Assembly: GCA_009843525.1 (NCBI GenBank)
Contig: VYDH01000033.1
Location: forward strand, 62,001-126,000
Length of the DNA stretch: 64,000 bases
DNA from: Acidimicrobiales bacterium
GTDB taxonomy: Bacteria > Actinomycetota > Acidimicrobiia > Acidimicrobiales > Poriferisodalaceae
Direction: 5' to 3'
The notes under the pieces were generated by a model. It ran no database searches and was not told where the DNA came from. It saw only the letters and a program-made list of their open reading frames with translations. The position numbers and the translations under genes are program-made. This document shows, piece after piece, positions 11,615 to 22,484 of this stretch (positions are counted from its first letter, which is position 1; every line of letters begins with the position of its first letter).

Positions 11615-12289
11615 TCAGACCTCAGCCGATGCTGTGCTGTTTGACGCGCCTTCCGGCGCTTTGACTGCGTTGCGGACGACGACCGTGCCGCCCTTGGGCC
11701 CGGGGACGGAGCCACGCACCAGCAGCAGGCCCCGCTCGGCGTCGGCCTCGACAACAGCGAGGTTGAGCGTGGTGACCTTCTCCCCGCCCATGCGCCCGGC
11801 CATGCGGGTGCCCTTGAACACCCGTGAGGGGGTGGCGCAGGCGCCGATGGCGCCGGGGGCCCGGTGGACCCGGTGCGCGCCATGGCTGGCGCGCTGGCCT
11901 GAGAAGTTGTACCGCTTCATGGTGCCGGCGAAACCCTTGCCCTTGGAGGTGGCTGTCACATCGACAAGCTCTCCGGGACTGAAAAGATCGGCACCCAATT
12001 CGGTGCCGACCGATACTTCGCTCACATCGTCGAGCCGCAGCTCTACGAGCCTCAGGCCAGGGTCGATCCCGGCTCGCTCGTAGTGGCCGTTCGTGGGCTT
12101 GTTGACCTTGCGCGCCTCGCGGTGACCGTAGGTGACCTGCACCGCGGTATAGCCGTCTTGCTCGTTGGTGCGCACCTGGGTGACCCGGCAGTCGTCGACG
12201 CGCAGCACTGTGACCGGGACGACGCGGTTGTCGTCATCCCAGAGCTGTGTCATGCCGACCTTGGTGGCGACAAGCGCCCTGTTGGCCAT
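11615..12289 (-). CDS. rplC: 50S ribosomal protein L3
   Basis: L3 nucleates 50S assembly. It has 224 residues and starts [17 protein letters not shown]. The L3 signature ([18 protein letters not shown] ... [22 protein letters not shown]) is at about residues 105-160. It is the first ribosomal gene after the non-ribosomal insertion, and it has its own leader with a strong hairpin and a candidate promoter rather than following rpsJ as it normally does. The ribosome-binding site is weak (GAGAG). Confidence 0.97.
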
Positions 12290-12353
12290 GTGCGCGTCTC
12301 TCTCGTGCTTTCGCCGTGCATCTCGCTGCCCGCCCAGCGGGCCGCCATGCGAA

Positions 12354-12381
12354 CGCTCCGCACGGCTGTGCCGGCGGAGCG
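12354..12381 (-). promoter_or_regulatory. strong hairpin in the rplC leader
   Basis: CGCTCCGC-A-CGGC, loop TGT, GCCG-GCGGAGCG: 12 base pairs interrupted by one bulged base, about 65 bases upstream of the rplC ATG and inside the predicted 5' leader. A smaller TCCGGC/GCCGGA hairpin is at 12436-12450. No T-tract follows. Because S10-operon leaders are a classic site of L4 feedback, this may be a regulatory leader; that is inference. Confidence 0.45.
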
Positions 12382-12489
12382 GTTCTGGAGGTTGTGCCGA
12401 CCGGTTCCGAACACCCGACCCATTGCGGGGAGGCATCCGGCCTTGCCGGACGTCAGTTCGACGCAGGAAGTCCGCGCCGCGAATGAAGC

Positions 12490-12518
12490 AGGCTACCGAT
12501 CCCCCACGACCGCCCCAA
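12490..12518 (-). promoter_or_regulatory. candidate promoter of the rplC operon
   Basis: TTGGGG at 12518-12513, a 17-base spacer, and TAGCCT at 12495-12490 on the minus strand. The -10 box is identical to those before rpsL and tuf in this window. It lies just downstream of the stop of the small membrane-protein gene, giving a leader of about 190 bases before rplC. Confidence 0.5.
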
Positions 12519-12530
12519 CCTTGCGCCCGT

Positions 12531-12989
12531 TCAACCAGAGGGCTGGGGGCGCCCTCGTTGATAGGCCGCGAACAGCATCACTTCGCTCGCCAGGACCAGG
12601 TGGAATGCCGTCGGCAGGTAGGCAGTGAACCACTTCCCTGCAGCGATGCCCTCGTCGCCGAACGCCCCAGCATCGCCGAGGAGTCCGACTGCCAAACGCG
12701 CCGCCATTGCAGCGAAGTACAGGACGCCGAACCAAGCAACTGGTCGTACCCAGCGCCGCCCGAAGAGGTTCCGGCCAGCTCGCATTCGCAGCGTCGCGGT
12801 TGCGATGATCATCAAGATCACCACTTGGGCCGCGAACAGCGCCGGGAACGGCAGGCTGCTGCCCTGCCAGGCGTCTTGGGAGGGCAGGAAGGCCACGTCC
12901 CACCGGCGCTGTACTGCTTGGCCCGCGACGCGGGCCAGGAATGCCAGGCCGAATACAAGGCTTGCCGCAGCAAATCGGATGTCGCTCAC
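12531..12989 (-). CDS. small integral membrane protein, function unknown
   Basis: A 152-residue protein with four hydrophobic segments (about residues 5-23, 45-65, 80-103 and 123-143), each of membrane-spanning length. I do not recognise the family. The GTG start has GGAGGA upstream and overlaps the stop of the enolase-superfamily gene (GTGA), so it is the last gene of that operon. It lies immediately before the rplC promoter. A role with the upstream enzymes is likely from the coupling, but nothing in the sequence names it. Confidence 0.75.
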
Positions 12990-14116
12990 GTGTCCTCCAG
13001 CGGCACCAGGACGGCTGCGGGATCGAGCCGCAGACCAAGCCCGCCGCCGCTGCGATCAGGCACATCGCGTCCGCGCAGCATTCCCCCGTAGCCCCACATG
13101 ATCGTCCGATCGGTGAGATCACGGGCCAGCAGATGCGTCCCGAAGGCGCCCTCGGCCCCCACAACGGCACCCGGGGCGCTCGCGATCACGGCGAGCGCCG
13201 CCCGGGTGAGCAGGCTCGTCTCTCCCACCTGGCATCCGACGATGACGTCAATGCCGGCGCGCGCGGCAGCAGCCACCACGTCCAGCGACCTGACGATCCC
13301 GCCCATCTTCGACACGCGCACGTTCACGATCCACGCCGACGGCTCCGCCAGCGCTTCGAGCTGCCGGGCGAACCGCAAGCTCTCGTCGGCGATGATCTTC
13401 ACCCGGCATTGCTGCGCGACGCGCATGCACCCGTCGACATCACCCGCCTGCAACGGTTCCTCGACGGCGAATGCGATGTCGCCCAGTGCATCCAAGTGCA
13501 CTGCGCACTGCTCGGGCGTCTCCCAGAGGTTGTTCGCATCGAGGCGAACCGTCGCCGGGCTCGACCCCCGGGAAACGAATGGGACCAGCTTGGCGCGGTC
13601 ACGCCGCAGCGAACCCGAGAGCTTCACCTTGAAGTCGGTGAAGCCCCGAACACGAAAGCCGCGCAGCTGCCATCGGTACAGCAGCAGCGGCATGTCGCCC
13701 AAGACAGCGGTATAGGCCACGTCGCGCGGGCCCGCAGCAACACCCAGCAACTGCTCGATATTGCAGCCGCCCGCCTTTCCCAGCAGGTCGAGGGCGGCAA
13801 GCTCCATCGCGCAGAACGCGGCCGGGTTCTCGTCGATGGCGTCGCTATGGGCGTCGATCCAGGAACGCAAGTCGTCCACGCTCCCGACTTCCGCGCAGAA
13901 CGACGCCGCGTGCTGGCTGACGAAGGCGGCGCAACCCCCGACGGTTTCCCCGGTCACGTACAGCCGTGGGCACCCTTCGCCGTAGCCGATCGTGCCGTCG
14001 TCGCCGTGGGCCGCCACGATGAGGTTCTCGGCGTGGCGGCGGCTGGCAGCGGCATGCCGGAAGACGCGCTTGAACGGCACGGGGAAGGTGAACGTCTTCA
14101 GGCGGTGTATCTGCAC
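12986..14116 (-). CDS. enolase-superfamily enzyme (muconate lactonizing/racemase-like)
   Basis: About 376 residues. The superfamily barrel residues are visible: KVK at 163-165 (catalytic lysine on the second strand), metal ligands Asp in RLDANN (~193), Glu in VEEP (~219) and Asp in ADES (~244), and the opposite lysine in VSKMGG (~270). Two lysines place it in the muconate lactonizing enzyme subgroup, whose members include cycloisomerases, o-succinylbenzoate synthases, dipeptide epimerases and N-acylamino acid racemases. The substrate is not deducible. The GTG start has GAGGT 6 bases upstream, 23 bases after the GH3 stop. The GH3 neighbour suggests an acyl-amino-acid or related substrate (inference). 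Confidence 0.85.
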   Translation of the reverse strand: MQIHRLKTFTFPVPFKRVFRHAAASRRHAENLIVAAHGDDGTIGYGEGCPRLYVTGETVGGCAAFVSQHAASFCAEVGSVDDLRSWIDAHSDAIDENPAAFCAMELAALDLLGKAGGCNIEQLLGVAAGPRDVAYTAVLGDMPLLLYRWQLRGFRVRGFTDFKVKLSGSLRRDRAKLVPFVSRGSSPATVRLDANNLWETPEQCAVHLDALGDIAFAVEEPLQAGDVDGCMRVAQQCRVKIIADESLRFARQLEALAEPSAWIVNVRVSKMGGIVRSLDVVAAAARAGIDVIVGCQVGETSLLTRAALAVIASAPGAVVGAEGAFGTHLLARDLTDRTIMWGYGGMLRGRDVPDRSGGGLGLRLDPAAVLVPLEDT

Positions 14117-14139
14117 GCATGCACCTCGGCCAAGCTCGC

Positions 14140-15849
14140 TCAGGCCGGAGCTGCGAAGTCGTCGAAGCGGAACGAGCAATCGGCGCTGTATTGCAGCCGG
14201 AGGTACTTGAACTGAACGTCGCGCTGACCGTCTGCGACGCGCTGGCGCCTGAATTCATCGCCCGTGCCCGCTGCGAGGAACCGGACGCGCAACGCCGCCA
14301 GCCGGCCACTGGCTCGTTTCTGGTCGTACTCGACATTGGTCTGCCGCAGTGCTTCTTCGACACTGCTTGACAGTGCGCCGGCAAGTTCGACCCCCTGTGG
14401 GCCAGCCGGTGTGCTCGCCAGCTCCACACTGAGCGTGTAGCGGGACTCTGCGACGTCGGCCAGCATGATGAAGAACGGTGCCACCGTGCCGAACTCGGCG
14501 ACCGCGGCGGTCACGGCCGACATCACTTGGAACTCGTAGAGCTTCTCGCCCGTAATGCTCGTGACGCCCTTGCCCTTCTGGACGAACGACAGGACCGGTG
14601 TGCGGTCAACGAAGCCCGTCACCCGCACGATGTCGTTCATGTCGTAGCGGTACAGACCGTCGGCCGTGGTCACGATGACGTAGTAGTCGCGGCCGGCCTC
14701 GAGATCGGCAAGCGTGCAGGTCTGCTCGCCACGGTCGGCATCGTCGGCAGCGGCCTCCCACCCATCGCGTTCTGCGAACTCGAAGAGGTTGTCCTGCAGG
14801 GTCGCGACGCAGGAGCCTTCGATGGGATCGATGTTGACGGTGCCGCTGACCTCGCTGGCGAGATAGCCGAGCTCGAATACCGGGCAGTCGAGTGTCAGCA
14901 TCGGCTGGAGACGCTCGATCGCCAAGCCGCAGCTCCCCCCGGTCCACGTCACGACCGCACGCAGGTCGCTCCAGATGTCGGCATAGGTGAGTCGACCTGC
15001 AGCCTCCAGGCGTCGACCGAGCGCCGCCGCTCGCTTCGGGTCTGCGCGGAGTCCGAGCTGGTCGTCGCGCCCAGGCACGTTGCAGCCAGCGGGCAGCCGC
15101 CCGGCGGCCACTGCGTCGAGCACCACGTCGGCCGAGTCATTGAGCACGTCCATCAGCCGGATGAACGTCGAGGGGTTGGCCGTCGCCATCGTGGTCACGG
15201 AGCCGTCAGCCGCGCCCAGCACCGCCATGGCCAAGTAGCGGGCGTCGTAGTCGGCGATGTCCGACACCGGCGCTGGCAGCACGTACCGGCGCCGCAGGAG
15301 CTTGCCCTGGCTCGCGTACAGCAGCCCTGACGCTGAGCCGTACGGCGTGCCTGCTGGCATGGTGCCCTCGTGCGCGGCACCGGTCACCGCGAACACCTTG
15401 CCGCCAAGCGCGGCGGTGCGCCGCGACAGCGTGTAGGCCGCGAGTCGCTGCAAGCGCTGGATGCGGGCGAGGCCGGCCTTGGTGAGCGGGATGTTCTTCG
15501 GCTCGGCGACAGTGCCGCTGGTCTGGTTGTAATAGACCGGCTGCTCGGCAGTGAGGCACCGCTGGCCGGTGGCTTCCTGCCGCTCGATCGCCTCCCTCAA
15601 GTCTTCGTAGGTCTGCACCGGCACGGCACGGCGGTAGTCCTCGAAGCCGGCGATCGAGCCGAAGCGGTGATCAGTGCCGAACACCGAGCCGGCGTTATCG
15701 GAGAGGATGCGCTGCAGCACCTGATCCTGAACTGCCCGCGGATCGGCGCACGCACGCACGAGCCCGCGGTAGGTGCGCCCGCTGGCCGCGGCCAGCCCGG
15801 CCCGAAGCAGTCGATAGCTGAGGCCGTCGGTCGCCGATCTGCCCGTCAC
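14140..15849 (-). CDS. GH3-family acyl-acid-amido synthetase-like protein
   Basis: A 569-residue member of the GH3 family, adenylating enzymes known in plants for conjugating jasmonate or auxin to amino acids; bacterial members are mostly uncharacterised. Visible landmarks: the N-terminal DNAGSVFGTDHRF block (~51-63), the nucleotide-binding loop YNQTSGTVAEPKN (~107-119), GGSCGLAI, and the YRYDMNDIVRVTGF ... KGKGVTSITGEKLYE segment that binds the adenylate. The GTG start overlaps the stop of the desaturase gene (GTGA). The substrate is unknown; the flanking fatty-acid hydroxylase-type and enolase-superfamily genes suggest a lipid or carboxylate-amino acid conjugate. Confidence 0.88.
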   Translation of the reverse strand: MTGRSATDGLSYRLLRAGLAAASGRTYRGLVRACADPRAVQDQVLQRILSDNAGSVFGTDHRFGSIAGFEDYRRAVPVQTYEDLREAIERQEATGQRCLTAEQPVYYNQTSGTVAEPKNIPLTKAGLARIQRLQRLAAYTLSRRTAALGGKVFAVTGAAHEGTMPAGTPYGSASGLLYASQGKLLRRRYVLPAPVSDIADYDARYLAMAVLGAADGSVTTMATANPSTFIRLMDVLNDSADVVLDAVAAGRLPAGCNVPGRDDQLGLRADPKRAAALGRRLEAAGRLTYADIWSDLRAVVTWTGGSCGLAIERLQPMLTLDCPVFELGYLASEVSGTVNIDPIEGSCVATLQDNLFEFAERDGWEAAADDADRGEQTCTLADLEAGRDYYVIVTTADGLYRYDMNDIVRVTGFVDRTPVLSFVQKGKGVTSITGEKLYEFQVMSAVTAAVAEFGTVAPFFIMLADVAESRYTLSVELASTPAGPQGVELAGALSSSVEEALRQTNVEYDQKRASGRLAALRVRFLAAGTGDEFRRQRVADGQRDVQFKYLRLQYSADCSFRFDDFAAPA

Positions 15850-16811
15850 GACGGCGTCGCCGTTCCGGCTGCTCGCTTGTCGAGTCCTCGAATCAAGGGG
15901 GTGCGCATCTGGGCCAGGAAGCCTGCCGGGTAGTCGCGGTTCAGCAGACCGAGCCGCCCGACCGCCGCGTCGGCGGGAAGGTACCGGGTGCCGAACAGCA
16001 CGTCCCAGATGATGAGGTTGTTGCCGAAGTTGTGATCCGACTCCGCCGGCAGTTCCGAGTGATGCCAGCGGTGCAGTTCCGGTCCGCTGATGAGGTAGTT
16101 GAGCCACCCGAGGCGAACATCGCAGTTGGAGTGCTGGTAGAAGCCGTTCAGCGCGTAGAACACGAAATAGGCCGCGAGCACTTCGCTTCCCACGCCCACC
16201 AGCACAAACGGCAACGCGTCGACGCAGAACTGGACCGCTTTCTCCCCTGGGTGGAAGCGGCCGACGTTCAGCCAGTACAGCCGGTGCGGCGAGTGGTGCA
16301 CGGCGTGCCAGCGCCACATGAAGGCCGAGCCATGGAACGCCCGGTGCAGCCAGTAGCGGAAGAAGTCGGCCACGGCCATCATCAACGCCGCTTGCAGCGC
16401 GACGGGCCAGCCGTGCGGCCACAGGCCCCCGAGGGTCAGGTCGCCCTCGCGCAGCCATCCGGCAAATGCCGCCGTCGCTGCCAGCGAGAGCAGCAGCGGC
16501 AGCACCACTTGGACGGCCACCATGAACGCCACATCGGCTCGCACGTCGGCACCCTGGGGGCGCCATTCGGTGCGGCAGGGCAGAGCGATCTCGTGCAGCG
16601 TGACCAGCCCCGCCCCAACGAGCACGGCGACGTATGACGCCGTCACGGCCGCCATCCCCAGCGACCCTGCGATTGCGTAGATGCCGACTCCCAACAGGAT
16701 CACGGCCGGATACGAGACCCGGACGGCCAACCTGCCGGCTGCGGTAGGCCGCTCCGGGTAGTGGCCCAGATGCTCGGCCTCAATTCGCTCGGGCGGATCG
16801 GCGGCCGTCAT
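15846..16811 (-). CDS. fatty acid hydroxylase / sterol desaturase superfamily membrane protein
   Basis: A 321-residue membrane di-iron oxygenase. The histidine clusters expected of the family are present: HRAFH (156-160), WHAVHH (168-173), QHSN (227-230) and HRWHH (247-251), separated by hydrophobic membrane segments at about 30-75, 95-120 and 195-225. Family members hydroxylate or desaturate acyl chains, carotenoids or sterols at the membrane; the substrate here is unknown. It is the gene before GH3 and overlaps it by four bases. The ribosome-binding site is weak. Confidence 0.88.
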   Translation of the reverse strand: MTAADPPERIEAEHLGHYPERPTAAGRLAVRVSYPAVILLGVGIYAIAGSLGMAAVTASYVAVLVGAGLVTLHEIALPCRTEWRPQGADVRADVAFMVAVQVVLPLLLSLAATAAFAGWLREGDLTLGGLWPHGWPVALQAALMMAVADFFRYWLHRAFHGSAFMWRWHAVHHSPHRLYWLNVGRFHPGEKAVQFCVDALPFVLVGVGSEVLAAYFVFYALNGFYQHSNCDVRLGWLNYLISGPELHRWHHSELPAESDHNFGNNLIIWDVLFGTRYLPADAAVGRLGLLNRDYPAGFLAQMRTPLIRGLDKRAAGTATPS

Positions 16812-16868
16812 GAGCCGAGCCTATGTTTCGGTGCGCTGGAGTCCGATGAAACAGCCGAGCGCGAGCGT

Positions 16869-17894
16869 TCAGTCGCCGAGGCGGACGATGGTGGTGCCGA
16901 CGGTGCGTCCGGCAAGCAGGTCGACGAAGGCGCCGCCCGCAGCATCGAGCCCGTCGTAGGTGACATGGCGAGGCACGAGCGAGCCCGCGTCGATCCACTC
17001 GCGCATCTGGGCGCGGGCCTCCTCGTAGCGGCCGGTGTAAGAGAACACGAGGAAGCCCTGCATGCGCACCTGGTTGTTCACCAGCAAGCCCGGGATGCCT
17101 CGCGGACTGGGATCGGGGCTGGCGGTGTCGTAGGCCGAGACCGCTCCGCAGCACACGATGCGGCCGAACGTGGCCATGCGGAAGAGTGCCGAGCCGAGGA
17201 TCTCGCCGCCCGTGTTGTCGAAGTACACGTCGATGCGGTCGGGCGTGGCGGCGCGGAACTCAGCCCGGAAGTCGGGCGAATGCCGGTTGATCGCCGCGTC
17301 GAAGCCCAGCTCGCCGACCAACAGCGAGCATTTCTCATCCGAGCCGGCTACGCCGACCACCCGGCAACCCTGCGTCTTGGCGATCTGCCCGACGATGTGG
17401 CCCACCGATCCCGCTGCTGCGGACACCACCACGGTCTCGCCCGGTTCGGGGCGCCCGACGTCGAGCAAGCCGAAGTAGGCGGTCAGCCCGTTAGTGCCGA
17501 GTACGCCGAGGTGCAAGGCGGGATCGAGCGCGCCGTCCGCGACGCGCAGCTCGCCGCCGGCCATCACAGCGTGGCGGCGCCAGCCAGTCGCGCCCACGAC
17601 GGTGTCGCCGACGCTGATGCCGTCCGCGTTCGACGCTTCCACGATGCCCGCGCCCATGCCTCGCATCACCACACCGACTTCCGGGGCGCCCGCGTAGCTG
17701 GCGCTGCCCTGCAGGCCGGCTCGCTGTCCCGCGCCGATCGTGATCGCCTGAACCCGCACCAGCACCTCGCCTGGTCCGGGTTCGGCTGCATTATCGGGCC
17801 GCAACGCGAAGTGCTCAGCGCTGAGCGGCCCGTCGGGAGCCTCGGCAAGCACCACGCTGTCCGACACCCGCGCTGTGTTCGTATCTCCAGTCAT
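16869..17894 (-). CDS. MDR-family NADP-dependent oxidoreductase
   Basis: A 341-residue medium-chain reductase without zinc-ligand cysteines, resembling the leukotriene B4 dehydrogenase/CurA type that reduces alkenals and enones. The Rossmann motif AAAGSVGHIVGQIAK is near residue 160, and the N-terminal GroES-like fold includes GPGEVLVRV and the MRGMGAGIV segment. The ATG has GGAG upstream. It is 57 bases upstream of the desaturase gene on the same strand, so it may head that operon, and it is divergent from the coxM-like gene. Confidence 0.85.
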   Translation of the reverse strand: MTGDTNTARVSDSVVLAEAPDGPLSAEHFALRPDNAAEPGPGEVLVRVQAITIGAGQRAGLQGSASYAGAPEVGVVMRGMGAGIVEASNADGISVGDTVVGATGWRRHAVMAGGELRVADGALDPALHLGVLGTNGLTAYFGLLDVGRPEPGETVVVSAAAGSVGHIVGQIAKTQGCRVVGVAGSDEKCSLLVGELGFDAAINRHSPDFRAEFRAATPDRIDVYFDNTGGEILGSALFRMATFGRIVCCGAVSAYDTASPDPSPRGIPGLLVNNQVRMQGFLVFSYTGRYEEARAQMREWIDAGSLVPRHVTYDGLDAAGGAFVDLLAGRTVGTTIVRLGD

Positions 17895-18155
17895 GACCCG
17901 CTCCTCGATTCGTCAACGGATGTCGATGCGGCACCACATGATTGCCGCTCGTCAGCGGCGGTTCTTCGCTCGTTTGCCAGAGGCAGCAGTCACCCGGGAC
18001 ACCGGCGACGATGGCTAACGCGACGAGCACGGCTCAGCGCAACTAACGTCCGCTGCCGTGTGCGCCGTCACCCGCCGGCGGCGCGAGCGACGCAACCGGC
18101 GGGAGACGGTGCGTCGACAGATGATGCAACACCCAACGGATCGGGAGCTATCCGC

Positions 18156-19034
18156 ATGAAATATGCCGCGCCGACCACCATTGACGAGGCGAGGACACTG
18201 CTGGCCGGCGATGCCGGTGCCATCGTGTTCGCAGGCGCAACCGACGTCGTGCCGCAGATGCGCGCCGGGCGGCCTGAGCCGTCGATGGTGATCGACCTCA
18301 AGAAGATCGACCGCCTCATGTCAGTGAGCCTCGACGGCGATACCTGGCAGGTGGGTGCTGCGGCCCCCAGCTCGGCGCTCACGTCCAACGCCGCCTTTGC
18401 TGCCGACTTCCCAGGCCTGACCGAGGCTGCCGGACTGATCGGGTCGGACCAGATCCAGAACCGCTCCAGCCTCGGCGGAAACCTCTGCAACGCCTCCCCC
18501 GCTGCCGACTCCGTGCCTGCCCTCGTCGTGAACGATGCGGTCGCCGTGATCGCAGCCGCTGACGGCGAGCGACGGGTGCCCGTCGCCGACGTGGTGACGG
18601 GGCCCGGCCAGACGTCGCTGGCGCATGACGAGATCGTGGTGTGCTTCGAGCTCGCCCGGCCAGCCGGCGGTACCTCCGATGCCTACCTGCGACTCATCCC
18701 TCGCACCGAGATGGACATCGCCGTGGTGGGTGCCGGCGTCCGGCTCACGCTGGACGACAGCGGCAATGTGAGCGCGGCTGCCGTCGCGCTCGGAGCGGTT
18801 GCGCCCACCGTCGTGCGGGTGCCTGCCGCCGAGGCGGCGCTCGTGGGCAGCAGCCTCGACGACACAGCGCTGGCCGCCGCAGCCGCAGCCGCCAGCGACG
18901 CCTGCAACCCCATAGACGACAAGCGGGGCACGATCAACTACCGGCGCCAGGTTGCCGGCGTGCTCACCCGTCGAGCCGCCGGCATCGCCGCCGACCGGAT
19001 CCGCACACGCAACGGACAGAACGGAGCGTCCTGA
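18156..19034 (+). CDS. FAD-binding subunit of a xanthine dehydrogenase/CO dehydrogenase-family enzyme
   Basis: CoxM-type medium subunit, 292 residues. The FAD-binding motif AGATDVVPQMR (~residues 28-38), the second motif IGSDQIQNRSSLGGNLCNASPAAD (~105-128) and the C-terminal KRGTINYRRQVAGVL identify the family. It passes electrons from the iron-sulfur subunit to an acceptor. GGGAG lies 8 bases before the ATG, and its TGA overlaps the next ATG by one base. The subunit order M-S-L matches cox operons, but the large subunit argues against CO as substrate. Confidence 0.92.
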   Translation: MKYAAPTTIDEARTLLAGDAGAIVFAGATDVVPQMRAGRPEPSMVIDLKKIDRLMSVSLDGDTWQVGAAAPSSALTSNAAFAADFPGLTEAAGLIGSDQIQNRSSLGGNLCNASPAADSVPALVVNDAVAVIAAADGERRVPVADVVTGPGQTSLAHDEIVVCFELARPAGGTSDAYLRLIPRTEMDIAVVGAGVRLTLDDSGNVSAAAVALGAVAPTVVRVPAAEAALVGSSLDDTALAAAAAAASDACNPIDDKRGTINYRRQVAGVLTRRAAGIAADRIRTRNGQNGAS

Positions 19035-19513
19035 TGAGCCGCACCCATGTGAACTGCGAGGTCAACGGCGACGCCGTTGACTTTCTGACCGAAGACGGCG
19101 AATCGCTGCTCAATGCCCTGCGAGACGAGCTGGGCCTGATCGGGGCCAAGGAAGGCTGCGGCACCGGCGACTGCGGTGCCTGCTCGGTCATCATGAACGG
19201 CCGCCTGCAGTGTGCCTGTCTGATCTTCGCCCCCGAGGCCGACGGCGCCGCCATCACCACCTGCGAGGGTCTCGCCAGCGCAGATGAGCTGCACCCGCTG
19301 CAGCAGTGCTTCCTCGAAGGAGCCGCGCTGCAATGCGGCATCTGCACGCCCGGGTTCCTCATCGCCGCCAAGGCACTGCTCGACGAGAACCCCGACCCAA
19401 CCGAGACCGAAGTGCGCTACGCGCTCGCCGGCAACCTGTGCCGCTGCACCGGGTACGACAAGATCGTGCGCTCGGTGCTCGAGGCCGCCGTCCAGATCCG
19501 CACCCCGGCCTGA
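19034..19513 (+). CDS. [2Fe-2S] subunit of a xanthine dehydrogenase/CO dehydrogenase-family enzyme
   Basis: CoxS-type small subunit of 159 residues carrying both clusters of the family: a plant-ferredoxin site (EGCGTGDCGACSV, ~residues 43-55, plus a later Cys) and the C-terminal helical site (CGICTPGF ... NLCRCTGY). It relays electrons between the molybdenum site and FAD. Translation is coupled to the FAD subunit by TGATG. Confidence 0.95.
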   Translation: MSRTHVNCEVNGDAVDFLTEDGESLLNALRDELGLIGAKEGCGTGDCGACSVIMNGRLQCACLIFAPEADGAAITTCEGLASADELHPLQQCFLEGAALQCGICTPGFLIAAKALLDENPDPTETEVRYALAGNLCRCTGYDKIVRSVLEAAVQIRTPA

Positions 19514-19564
19514 TTCACATCGGCTGGCTGAGACTCTCCTGACATCGCACAAGGACACCTGAAC

Positions 19565-21838
19565 ATGAGCACCACTGAAGCGCCCCCAAGCACTGGGACC
19601 AATGGCAATGGAGCGAGCGGGTACCGCTGGGTCGGCACCCGCCCCGTCCGCCACGACGGACTCGACAAGGTCGCCGGCAAGGCCCGCTACGCGGCCGACC
19701 TGAACCTGCCGGGAATGCTGTACGGGCACATCCTGCGCTCGCCGCATCCCCACGCACGGATCGTTTCGATCGACACCTCAGCCGCCGAGGGGATGCCCGG
19801 CGTGAAAGCGGTGGTCACCGGAGCCGACTTCCCCGAAGCACCGCCCAAGGGCGCCACGCGCAACCTGATGTGCACGGTGATCGCCCGCGACACGGTGCTG
19901 TACAGCGGCCATGCCGTGGCTGCGGTGGCAGCGTCCACCCGTCGTGAGGCCAAGGCAGCGGCGGAGGCCATCGAGGTCACCTACGAGCTGCTGCCCCACG
20001 TGCTGAACATCTCCGATGCGATGGCCGACGACGCACCGGTGCTGCACGACAACCTGTTCACGCGCGGCGTCGAGCCGCGGCCCACCGAGCCGTCGAACAT
20101 CGCGGCACGCACGGTGTACGAGCGCGGCGATGTCGAGCAGGGGTTCGCCGAGGCCGACATCGTGATCGAGCGCGAGTTCTCGACCCAGGCAGTGCACCAG
20201 GGCTACATCGAGCCGCACGCCTGCGTGGTCGACTGCGACCAGGAGGGCAAGGCCGTCATCTGGGCTTCGTCGCAGGGCCACTTCATGGTGCGGTCGTCGA
20301 CGGCCACGGTGCTGGGCTGGGATACCTCGCGCATCAAGGTGATCCCGGCCGAGATCGGCGGCGGCTTCGGCGGCAAGACGACGATCTACATCGAGCCGGT
20401 GGCGGCGCTGCTGTCGACGAAATCCGGCCGCCCGGTCAAGATCGTGATGAGCCGTGAGGACGTGTTCCGGGCAACCGGTCCCGCCCCGGGGGCGATCATC
20501 AAGATGAAGGTCGGCGCCCGCGACGACGGCACGATCACCACGGCGAAGGCCTGGCTGGCATACGAGAATGGGGCCTTTCAAGGCATTGCCGCGATGCTCG
20601 GCTGCATGTGCGTCGTATCGGCCTACACCCTCGATCATCTCTATGTGGAGGGCTTCGACGTAGTGCTCAACCGGCCGGTCAACGTGGCCTACCGGGCACC
20701 GTCGGCTCCCGCCGCGGCATTCGCGATGGATTCGATGGTCGACGAGATCGCGGAGCGGGTCGGCATCGACCCGATCGACCTCCGCATCCAGAACTGCCCC
20801 TCGCAGGGCGACCCGACGCCGTACGGACCCAAGTGGCCGATGATCGGCCTGCGCGAGTGCCTCGAAGCGATCCGTGACAGCGATCACTACCAGTCGGAGC
20901 TGCCCGAAGGGCAGGGCCGCGGTGTGGCCAGCGGTTTCTGGTTCAACATCGGCGAGGCGTCGAGTGCCACGGTGAACCTGAACGAGAACGGCACCGCCAC
21001 GGTGATCACCGGCAGCCCCGACATCGGTGGCAGCCGGGCATCGATGGCGCTGATGGCGGCCGAGGAACTGGGCCTCGATGTGCACCTGATCCAACCGGTC
21101 GTGGGCGACACCGAGGTAGTCGGCTTCACCGACGTGACCGAGGGCAGCCGCGCCACGTTCGCGACGGGCATGGCGGTCGTGGAGGCCTGCCGCGATCTCA
21201 AGGAGCAGCTGCGCAAGCGTGCGGCCAAGACCTGGGATTGCGACGTCGAAGAAGTCGAATGGGTCGACGGCTCGGCCGTGCACGGACCTGGCGAGCAGGA
21301 GCCGCTGACGCTGGCCGCCATCACCGGCAATGCGAAGCGCACCGGCGGCCCGCTGGGCGCCACTGCGTCGCTGAATGCCCGGGGCGCCGGCCCGGCCTTC
21401 TCGGTCCAGGTCGCCGACGTGTCCGTCGACCAAGAGACCGGGCGGGTCACCGTCGAGCGCTACACCACCGCGCAGGATGCTGGTACAGCGATTCACCCCA
21501 GCTACGTGGAAGGTCAGATGCAGGGCGGCGTGGTGCAGGGCATCGGCTGGGCGCTCAACGAGGAGTACATCTACTCCGACGATGGCAACCTCGAGAACCC
21601 GGGATTCCTCGACTACCGCATCCCGGTGGCGTCAGATCTGCCCATGATCGAAACCTGCATCGTGGAGGTGCCCAATCCTTCGCATCCTTACGGAGTGCGC
21701 GGCGTCGGCGAGGTGGGCATCGTGCCGCCGCTGCCGGTGATGGCCAACGCCGTGGCCGATGCCACCGGCGTGCGCATCAGCGATCTGCCGCTCTCGCCCC
21801 CGCGAGTGCTGGAAGCGCTGACGGCCGCCGAGAGCTGA
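19565..21838 (+). CDS. molybdopterin-binding large subunit of a xanthine dehydrogenase-family hydroxylase
   Basis: A 757-residue large subunit holding the molybdenum cofactor. Visible: GGGFGGK near residue 264, an active-site loop reading AYRAPSAP near 375, and the catalytic glutamate in GVRGVGEVG near 713. True (form I) CO dehydrogenase has AYxCSFR in that loop and form II has AYRGAGR; this gene has neither, so CO oxidation is unlikely and the substrate (perhaps an N-heterocycle, purine or acyl-CoA aromatic) is unknown. AAGGA precedes the ATG, and it follows coxS by 51 bases. Confidence 0.92.
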   Translation: MSTTEAPPSTGTNGNGASGYRWVGTRPVRHDGLDKVAGKARYAADLNLPGMLYGHILRSPHPHARIVSIDTSAAEGMPGVKAVVTGADFPEAPPKGATRNLMCTVIARDTVLYSGHAVAAVAASTRREAKAAAEAIEVTYELLPHVLNISDAMADDAPVLHDNLFTRGVEPRPTEPSNIAARTVYERGDVEQGFAEADIVIEREFSTQAVHQGYIEPHACVVDCDQEGKAVIWASSQGHFMVRSSTATVLGWDTSRIKVIPAEIGGGFGGKTTIYIEPVAALLSTKSGRPVKIVMSREDVFRATGPAPGAIIKMKVGARDDGTITTAKAWLAYENGAFQGIAAMLGCMCVVSAYTLDHLYVEGFDVVLNRPVNVAYRAPSAPAAAFAMDSMVDEIAERVGIDPIDLRIQNCPSQGDPTPYGPKWPMIGLRECLEAIRDSDHYQSELPEGQGRGVASGFWFNIGEASSATVNLNENGTATVITGSPDIGGSRASMALMAAEELGLDVHLIQPVVGDTEVVGFTDVTEGSRATFATGMAVVEACRDLKEQLRKRAAKTWDCDVEEVEWVDGSAVHGPGEQEPLTLAAITGNAKRTGGPLGATASLNARGAGPAFSVQVADVSVDQETGRVTVERYTTAQDAGTAIHPSYVEGQMQGGVVQGIGWALNEEYIYSDDGNLENPGFLDYRIPVASDLPMIETCIVEVPNPSHPYGVRGVGEVGIVPPLPVMANAVADATGVRISDLPLSPPRVLEALTAAES

Positions 21839-21880
21839 TCGCAACCCGAAGCCGCTGAGGCATTTCGTCGGGGCAACTCG

Positions 21881-22132
21881 ATGGCGGTCGTTCACTTCTC
21901 GACCGACCAGCGCCAGCACACCGGCGGGACACCTGAGGTCACCATCGAAGCGGCGAACGTGCGCGACCTGGTGCGGCAACTCGCAGAACTGTTCCCATCA
22001 CTCAACGCGCACCTCGTCGAGACCTCGTCCACCGCAGTCGCCATCGACGGCGAGATCATCCCCGACCCCTGGCTCGAAGAGCTCACCCCAACGTCAGAGG
22101 TGCATCTAGTCCGCCCGCTCGCGGGCGGATAA
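21881..22132 (+). CDS. MoaD/ThiS-like beta-grasp sulfur carrier protein
   Basis: An 83-residue protein ending in Gly-Gly (RPLAGG), the thiocarboxylated terminus of ubiquitin-fold sulfur carriers such as MoaD and ThiS. The pattern VRDLVRQLAELFP followed by VAIDGEI and a C-terminal EVHLVRP strand fits MoaD. Placed 42 bases after a molybdenum enzyme, it probably supplies the dithiolene sulfur of its molybdopterin (inference). It converges with rpsJ. Confidence 0.8.
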   Translation: MAVVHFSTDQRQHTGGTPEVTIEAANVRDLVRQLAELFPSLNAHLVETSSTAVAIDGEIIPDPWLEELTPTSEVHLVRPLAGG

Positions 22133-22162
22133 GTCAACACAGCGCCCGCTCGCGGGCGGATA
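22111..22162. terminator. tandem duplicate hairpins between convergent moaD-like gene and rpsJ
   Basis: A 20-base palindromic unit is repeated exactly with a 31-base period (22112-22131 and 22143-22162). Each copy forms a CGCCCG/CGGGCG stem (seven pairs in the first) with a CTCG loop. The first copy includes the last codons and stop of the moaD-like gene; the second lies 8 bases beyond the rpsJ stop. No T-tract is present, but a bidirectional terminator or barrier between head-on transcripts is the likeliest role. Confidence 0.55.
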
Positions 22163-22169
22163 GGCGCGG

Positions 22170-22484
22170 CTAGGGCTGGACTTTGAGCTCGATCTCGACG
22201 CCGGCAGGCAGGTCGAGACGCTGGAGCGAGTCGACCGTCTTGTCGGTGGGATCGATCACGTCGATCAGGCGCTTGTGGATGCGCATCTCGAAGTGCTCGC
22301 GCGAGTCCTTGTCCTTATGGGGGGACCGCACAACCGTGTAGCGATGCTTCTCGGTCGGCAGCGGCACCGGGCCCCTCACCTTGGCGTTGGTGCGCAGCAC
22401 CGTCTCGGTGATCTTCTGCGCCGACTGGTCCACGATCTCGTGGTCGTAGGCCTTGAGCCGCATCCGGATCCGAGGTGCTGCCAT
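22170..22484 (-). CDS. rpsJ: 30S ribosomal protein S10 / NusE
   Basis: S10 also serves as the NusB partner in antitermination. It has 104 residues: [18 protein letters not shown] at the N-terminus, then [31 protein letters not shown]. Here it closes the rpsL-rpsG-fusA-tuf series and is followed by hairpins and foreign genes instead of rplC. The weak ribosome-binding site (AGGC) and the 32-base gap to tuf suggest readthrough from tuf. Confidence 0.97.

Follow-up and report, generated by a model that had tools for sequence, protein, structure and literature searches.

A conserved bacterial gene cassette joining a GH3-like amido synthetase, a fatty-acid-hydroxylase-fold enzyme and an atypical enolase-superfamily protein

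A four-gene cassette conserved across bacteria

Four genes on the minus strand of a 64,000-nucleotide stretch of an Acidimicrobiales genome (the window; GCA_009843525.1, contig VYDH01000033.1, positions 62,001 to 126,000) form a real, conserved and patchily distributed cassette. They encode a membrane enzyme of the fatty-acid-hydroxylase fold (FAH), a GH3-type amido synthetase (GH3), an enolase-superfamily protein (ENO) and a small membrane protein (MEM). The initial annotation had proposed an operon here; conservation of the four genes was seen in the neighborhoods of homologs, and synteny in several phyla, gene overlaps, a gene fusion and joint presence or absence confirmed the proposal. No publication describing this gene combination was found in a search of titles and abstract openings, with most subscription journals outside its coverage.

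GH3 loci were collected by a GH3 peptide-pattern scan of one genome per GTDB species, which favors close relatives and may leave out records of the window's own genome, and the gene content of all 78 loci was determined by tblastn with the window proteins. When GH3 identity was at least 45% (n = 38), ENO lay directly downstream in every locus and FAH directly upstream in 37; the sole miss (L069) was a locus starting at a contig end. At 36-45% identity (n = 3), ENO was downstream in all three and FAH upstream in two, the miss (L049) again starting at a contig end. Overall, at GH3 identity of at least 36%, ENO was downstream in 41/41 loci and FAH upstream in 39/41. By record title, the FAH-GH3-ENO order occurred in Acidimicrobiia, Gamma- and Alphaproteobacteria, Chloroflexi, Binatia, Gemmatimonadetes and a 'Deltaproteobacteria' bin. 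MEM was found in 30 of the 38 closest loci, where it followed ENO (21), preceded FAH (4) or headed a PotABCD-like transporter set (5).

The reading frames, starts, GTGA overlaps and 23-base gap with a ribosome-binding site described in the initial annotation were all present in the sequence. FAH and GH3 have GTGA at 15846-15849 in common, ENO and MEM have GTGA at 12986-12989 in common, and the 23 bases between GH3 and ENO include GAGGTG ahead of the ENO start. The same tight junctions recurred elsewhere: FAH and GH3 overlapped in 29/36 loci (a fused locus, L046, excluded) and ENO and MEM overlapped by 4 bases in 21/21 loci with MEM after ENO, starts being chosen by a purpose-written open reading frame caller. 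In L045, a Gemmatimonadetes bin, FAH and GH3 were fused in a single frame of 857 residues, which aligned over almost the full length of FA_hydroxylase and of the three GH3 domains; L046 carried the same fusion with its 5' end cut by the contig start. This natural fusion is independent evidence that FAH and GH3 act together.

Presence and absence were compared in 99 relatives of the window genome, with 11 genomes making up the window's genus. GH3 was present in nine of the 99, all within the genus (9/11). Exactly those nine carried FAH at no less than 82% identity and ENO at no less than 79%; in G001, ENO lies at a contig end and is present as its first 84 residues alone. Further ENO matches had 33-34% identity (G053 and G069), and weaker FAH-family matches of at most 36% occurred in 10 other genomes. 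None of GH3, ENO and FAH was found in the two remaining members of the genus, G005 and G007. The empty site of G005 had the order rpsJ, MoaD-coxLSM, a reductase-like gene (MDR), rplC. There, the sequence between MDR and rplC matched the MEM-rplC interval of the window with 91.7% identity across 230 aligned bases. The four genes, MDR excluded, are thus cleanly present or absent as a block. A small tree grouped G005 and G007 with G003, a cassette carrier, which points to loss or regain of the cassette inside the genus.

Table 1. Features of the cassette and its flanks in the window
Feature	Position	Strand	Length	Start	Description
FAH	15846..16811	-	321 aa		OlsE-like membrane enzyme of the FA-hydroxylase fold; first cassette gene
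GH3	14140..15849	-	569 aa	GTG	ATP-dependent acyl-acid amido synthetase-like; OlsH-like
ENO	12986..14116	-	376 aa	GTG	Enolase superfamily (MLE-type); Arg at strand-6 catalytic position
MEM	12531..12989	-	152 aa	GTG	Small membrane protein without a named family
MDR	16869..17894	-	341 aa		Reductase-like neighbor; genus backbone, outside the cassette
Right-hand junction, rplC leader	12290..12530	-			Directly after MDR in the empty site of G005

Protein families and the ENO arginine

GH3 enzymes adenylate an acid and then pass it to an amine. The window GH3 passed the Pfam cut-off for PF03321 (166.4 bits against 23.6) and also matched PF23571 and PF23572, the middle and C-terminal domains; its best NCBIfam match was OlsH (NF052613, 87.6 bits). 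The three nucleotide-binding motifs, as set out in PMC12493201, were present (TSGT...K, SE and GLYRYDMND) and conserved in a 42-row alignment from which fused, short and five distant members had been dropped beforehand: T110-S111-G112, S332-E333 and Y400-R401-Y402 were kept in 42/42 rows and T113 in 41/42. In two loci (L052, 9689-17617; L064, 7973-15886) GH3 was directly followed by a very large open frame of ~2640 residues that ran off the locus.

FAH passed the cut-off for FA_hydroxylase (PF04116, 102.9 bits against 31), and its best NCBIfam match was OlsE (NF052566, 164.8 bits). Eight histidines (H156, H160, H169, H172, H173, H247, H250 and H251) were kept in 36/36 aligned members, L046 and L053 having been dropped from the alignment beforehand. 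The MEM model consisted of four long helices (mean predicted local distance difference test score, pLDDT, 88.3). Neither Pfam nor NCBIfam assigned the window MEM to a family, no Pfam family had matches in over 2 of 22 members, and a fold search against the PDB gave 114 matches at E <= 10 and none at E <= 0.001.

ENO matched MR_MLE_C (PF13378, 88.9 bits). In an alignment of the window protein with 44 members from GH3 loci, the strand-2 KxK (K163, K165) and the metal ligands D193, E219 and D244 were kept in 45/45 sequences. The position of the strand-6 catalytic lysine was Arg (R267), also in 45/45. R267 aligned with K268 of 1jpm (in NIKLMK), which we take to be the catalytic base, and the same position was Lys in all five PDB relatives compared. 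In the AlphaFold model (mean pLDDT 88.2), R267 ended the strand 262-267. The strand-8 DxD, the dipeptide-epimerase motif that holds the dipeptide amino group, was GxE in the window; position 322 was Glu in 45/45 members and Asp in 4/34 of a wider Arg-type set, all 34 rows of which kept H21, R26, R51 and R267.

ENO thus resembles dipeptide epimerases and N-acyl or N-succinyl amino acid racemases (3jva, 1jpm, 2p88 and others) in fold, strand-2 KxK and three metal ligands, but differs from them in the strand-6 Lys-to-Arg change and, in the window, the change of strand-8 DxD to GxE. From muconate and chloromuconate cycloisomerases it differs in its strand-6 Arg and its setting beside GH3. Its nearest folds included entries whose titles name enzymes acting on N-acyl amino acids, dipeptides and muconates, and the fold ranking did not separate racemases from cycloisomerases. 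Judged from its sequence by the strand-6 lysine, ENO is not a canonical dipeptide epimerase. Plain dipeptide epimerization is unlikely because R267 replaces the second lysine, and the earlier suggestion of an ordinary dipeptide epimerase or N-acylamino-acid racemase was not supported at this position.

The arginine is a marker that goes with linkage to GH3. Among 146 gammaproteobacterial relatives of G101, 21 ENO matches occurred in 20 genomes: 16 had Arg and GH3 adjoined all 16; five had Lys and none had GH3 within 1.5-kb flanks. The ENO proteins of G053 and G069 had Lys, and neither genome gave a GH3 match. The wider set drew on the window's phylum (396 genomes) and on the relatives of G107 (290), the best 30 ENO loci of each being used; these 60 loci gave 13 Arg, 44 Lys and 3 with another residue. 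GH3 adjoined ENO in 10 of the 13 Arg loci (which include the window, the locus of L055 itself, and L229, which looks the same as L060) and was present in the 1.5-kb flanks of 0/47 loci without Arg. When longer flanks were taken for the remaining Arg loci, one had GH3 ~3.5 kb away and another (L200/L264) ended at a contig edge. A further ENO match among the G107 relatives (L259) had Arg and an adjoining GH3.

The Arg-type rows form mostly one lineage, with one visible exception inside it. In this exception (L198 and L232), the tree places ENO as a nested branch next to the cassette ENOs, and the strand-6 pair is swapped, K267...R270 instead of R267/K270; R26 and R51 were kept, H21 was replaced by Gln, and GH3 was absent within ~6 kb.

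A second architecture, with a PF14518 heme-oxygenase-like iron enzyme, ENO and GH3 in that order, was seen in L054 (6188-9731), L055 (2008-6495), L060 and L229-L231, from bins titled Polyangium, Tanganyikabacteria and delta proteobacterium, among others. L055 and L060 had a 2-oxoacid-dehydrogenase-acyltransferase-like gene after GH3.

Candidate product and alternative readings

We favor, with moderate confidence, a modified N-acyl amino acid (an aminolipid or lipo-amino acid) as the cassette product; substrates, step order and product are what we infer. GH3 would activate a fatty acid with ATP and couple it to an amino acid through the latter's amino group, as suggested by OlsH and plant GH3 enzymes. 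FAH, in the membrane, may hydroxylate the conjugate, either on the head group, like OlsE, or on the acyl chain. ENO would then bind the conjugate carboxylate on its metal ion and the strand-2 lysines would take the alpha-proton; re-protonation on the other face would give a D-configured lipo-amino acid, and elimination or cyclization would be the other outcome. ENO is placed after GH3 because an N-acyl amino acid would have both features required by MLE-type enzymes, a carboxylate and an alpha-hydrogen. MEM may be a membrane helper (an anchor, a flippase or an FAH partner), which is a guess.

The nearest described system is the OlsH-OlsI(-OlsG) pathway of Singulisphaera acidiphila (PMC12493201), in which OlsH, a bacterial GH3 reported in 2025, uses free fatty acid, ATP and Mg to produce N-acyl-ornithine; its authors suggest that OlsH homologs outside planctomycetes may use other amino acids. 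The likeness lies in a GH3 making an N-acyl amino acid, the nucleotide motifs and an operon with lipid genes. By contrast, the cassette carries FAH, ENO and MEM in place of OlsG and OlsI. OlsE, described as an ornithine-lipid hydroxylase (PMC11631085; the C4 position of the head group is taken from the title of a cited paper), resembles FAH in FA_hydroxylase fold and histidine motifs, but FAH has a GH3 enzyme as its operon neighbor or fusion partner. The acyl-amino-acid or lipid-conjugate product suggested in the initial annotation was strengthened by the OlsH and OlsE best matches and by the N-acyl-ornithine synthesis of OlsH, while the chemical product is still one that we infer.

Several observations weigh against this product or narrow the reach of the cassette. 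Both best matches fell below their equivalog cut-offs: GH3 scored 87.6 bits in the window against 620 for OlsH, a cut-off reached by 0/10 other GH3-bearing genomes, and FAH scored 164.8 bits in the window, 179.2 in L020 and 191.1 in the L045 fusion against 475 for OlsE. R267 leaves racemization uncertain. No second acyltransferase is found among the four genes, so that a two-chain product like ornithine lipid is not implied. At GH3 identity of 25-36% (n = 24), FAH was present in 0/24 loci and ENO lay directly upstream in 5/24; below 25%, neither was found in the 13 loci. An ENO match (E <= 1e-30) was absent in 6 of 22 GH3-bearing gammaproteobacterial relatives, all with GH3 identity of at most 33%. 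Of the 38 close loci, 8 lacked MEM; contig ends truncate some of these 8. The Arg-type ENO of G880 (L233/L257) had no GH3 within ~8 kb. Because the Arg-type proteins are mostly one lineage, the Arg-GH3 counts are counts of sequences and not of independent events, and the link is partly one of shared descent. Nearly all named cassette carriers are metagenome-assembled genomes (MAGs), and bins can hold foreign contigs.

On the supporting side, the family PF13444, which we take to hold OlsB, was matched in none of 11 genomes searched (10 with FAH-GH3-ENO, and G107 with ENO-GH3 only), all of which carry an Arg-type ENO beside GH3; 2 of 14 controls matched.

The chemistry of ENO allows two readings of the final step. 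ENO may possibly, if doubtfully, be a two-base Lys/Arg epimerase in which R267 takes the role of the second lysine, the product being an N-acyl-D-amino acid lipid. Arginine is a poor general base, however, the five PDB relatives all have Lys at this position, and racemases of this group, according to PMC8142540, use a Lys/Lys pair. Of the usual bases only the strand-2 lysines K163 and K165 are left, which suits a single-base lyase or cyclase: FAH would hydroxylate first, and ENO would dehydrate the conjugate or close a ring to give a dehydro- or lactone-type lipo-amino acid. Dehydratases and cycloisomerases are among the superfamily members, and an oxidizing partner occurs both in the cassette (FAH) and in the distant ENO-GH3 pairs with PF14518 (L054, L055, L060 and L229-L231). 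We nevertheless regard this lyase or cyclase as somewhat unlikely, as the hydroxylated substrate is hypothetical and the distant pairs L050 and L051 have no PF14518-type iron enzyme directly beside ENO.

A more conservative reading is an ornithine-lipid pathway of the OlsH/OlsE kind, in which N-acyl-ornithine is hydroxylated on its head group and ENO is accessory. The best NCBIfam matches of GH3 and FAH are OlsH and OlsE, both of which match the fused L045 protein, and a PotABCD-like transporter stands in front of the cassette in one clade. This pathway is nonetheless improbable, given scores far below both cut-offs, the lack of any alpha/beta-hydrolase (OlsI type) or methyltransferase (OlsG type) family match among the window genes, and the invariant R26 and R51 of ENO, which could equally suit an acidic group. 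In addition, the main text of PMC12493201 is free of the words enolase, epimerase, racemase and hydroxylase.

That the genes are only a loose neighborhood, with FAH a sterol-related enzyme, is very improbable in view of a gene order fixed in several phyla, the fusion and the joint presence or absence. Sterol desaturases do belong to the FAH fold family. Sterol synthesis has also been reported for Ircinia-associated bacteria (PMC9531527); the best match of FAH, however, was OlsE and no sterol enzyme. Our most far-reaching proposal, put forward tentatively, is that the cassette makes an undescribed class of oxidized lipo-amino acids (D-configured, dehydro- or lactone-bearing) via an ENO subfamily connected with a GH3 partner and with its second catalytic Lys changed to Arg.

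Genomic setting, carriers and significance

The transcription order on the minus strand is MDR, FAH, GH3, ENO, MEM and, after 241 bases, rplC, the start of which was taken as 12289. MDR lies 57 bases from FAH and matched ADH_N_2 (73.2 bits) and ADH_zinc_N (71.9 bits). It was ruled out as a cassette member since it stays next to rplC in the cassette-free G005, and the enone-reducing pathway partner that the initial annotation had seen in it was likewise not borne out.

The S10 ribosomal operon is split in the window's genus (12289-22466 in the window), with ~9.9 kb between rpsJ (match 22182-22466) and rplC (from 12289). The insert consists of a MoaD-like gene, coxLSM-like genes, MDR and the cassette, the MoaD and coxLSM names being readings of the sequence without a family search. 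In another genus of the same family (G014, L149), rpsJ and rplC adjoin. In G007 (L148, 1723-7896), one gene with a PIN domain and one with a nucleotidyltransferase domain stood in place of the cassette, and next to them the 3' end of MDR was present as a second, partial copy; the site may be an insertion hot spot. In G002 (L151, 3220-12625), coxM and FAH were separated by ~10 kb of different content, a ROK-family protein and a YhfX/alanine-racemase-like protein among it, and MDR was not there. A GH3 tree of 50 rows, rooted at the midpoint and with several long branches, placed the window and the Actinomycetota rows in one supported group next to Pseudomonadota rows, a topology compatible with horizontal transfer without proving it.

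The PotABCD-like transporter set preceded FAH in L033, L034, L036, L037, L038, L041 and L044. L048 had molybdate-type ABC genes in front of the cassette and L022 had genes of the same clusters there; because these two differ at this position, the transporter is lineage-specific. It was rejected as a general cassette partner and was not used for substrate inference.

Some cassette carriers are sponge symbionts, judging from the MAG names of their loci. Among the 41 loci with GH3 identity of at least 36%, five bear names beginning with jk18x, which occur in an Ircinia sponge study (PMC9531527); p16x names were not in the main text of that paper. Nine more have the prefixes RHO, IRC, COS or CAR, which correspond, by initials only, to four sponge genera of PMC8163846.

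What is new relative to the OlsH work is ENO, an atypical enolase-superfamily partner of GH3-based lipo-amino-acid synthesis. The 2025 OlsH paper left open the role of other bacterial GH3 enzymes, and the cassette places a second kind in a defined context, the coupling of the tailoring enzymes to GH3 being shown by synteny and fusion. The Lys-to-Arg swap of ENO offers a clean test of the choice between racemization and elimination in the enolase superfamily. Should the product be real, unrelated bacteria, of which several are sponge symbionts, would share the ability to make this lipid.

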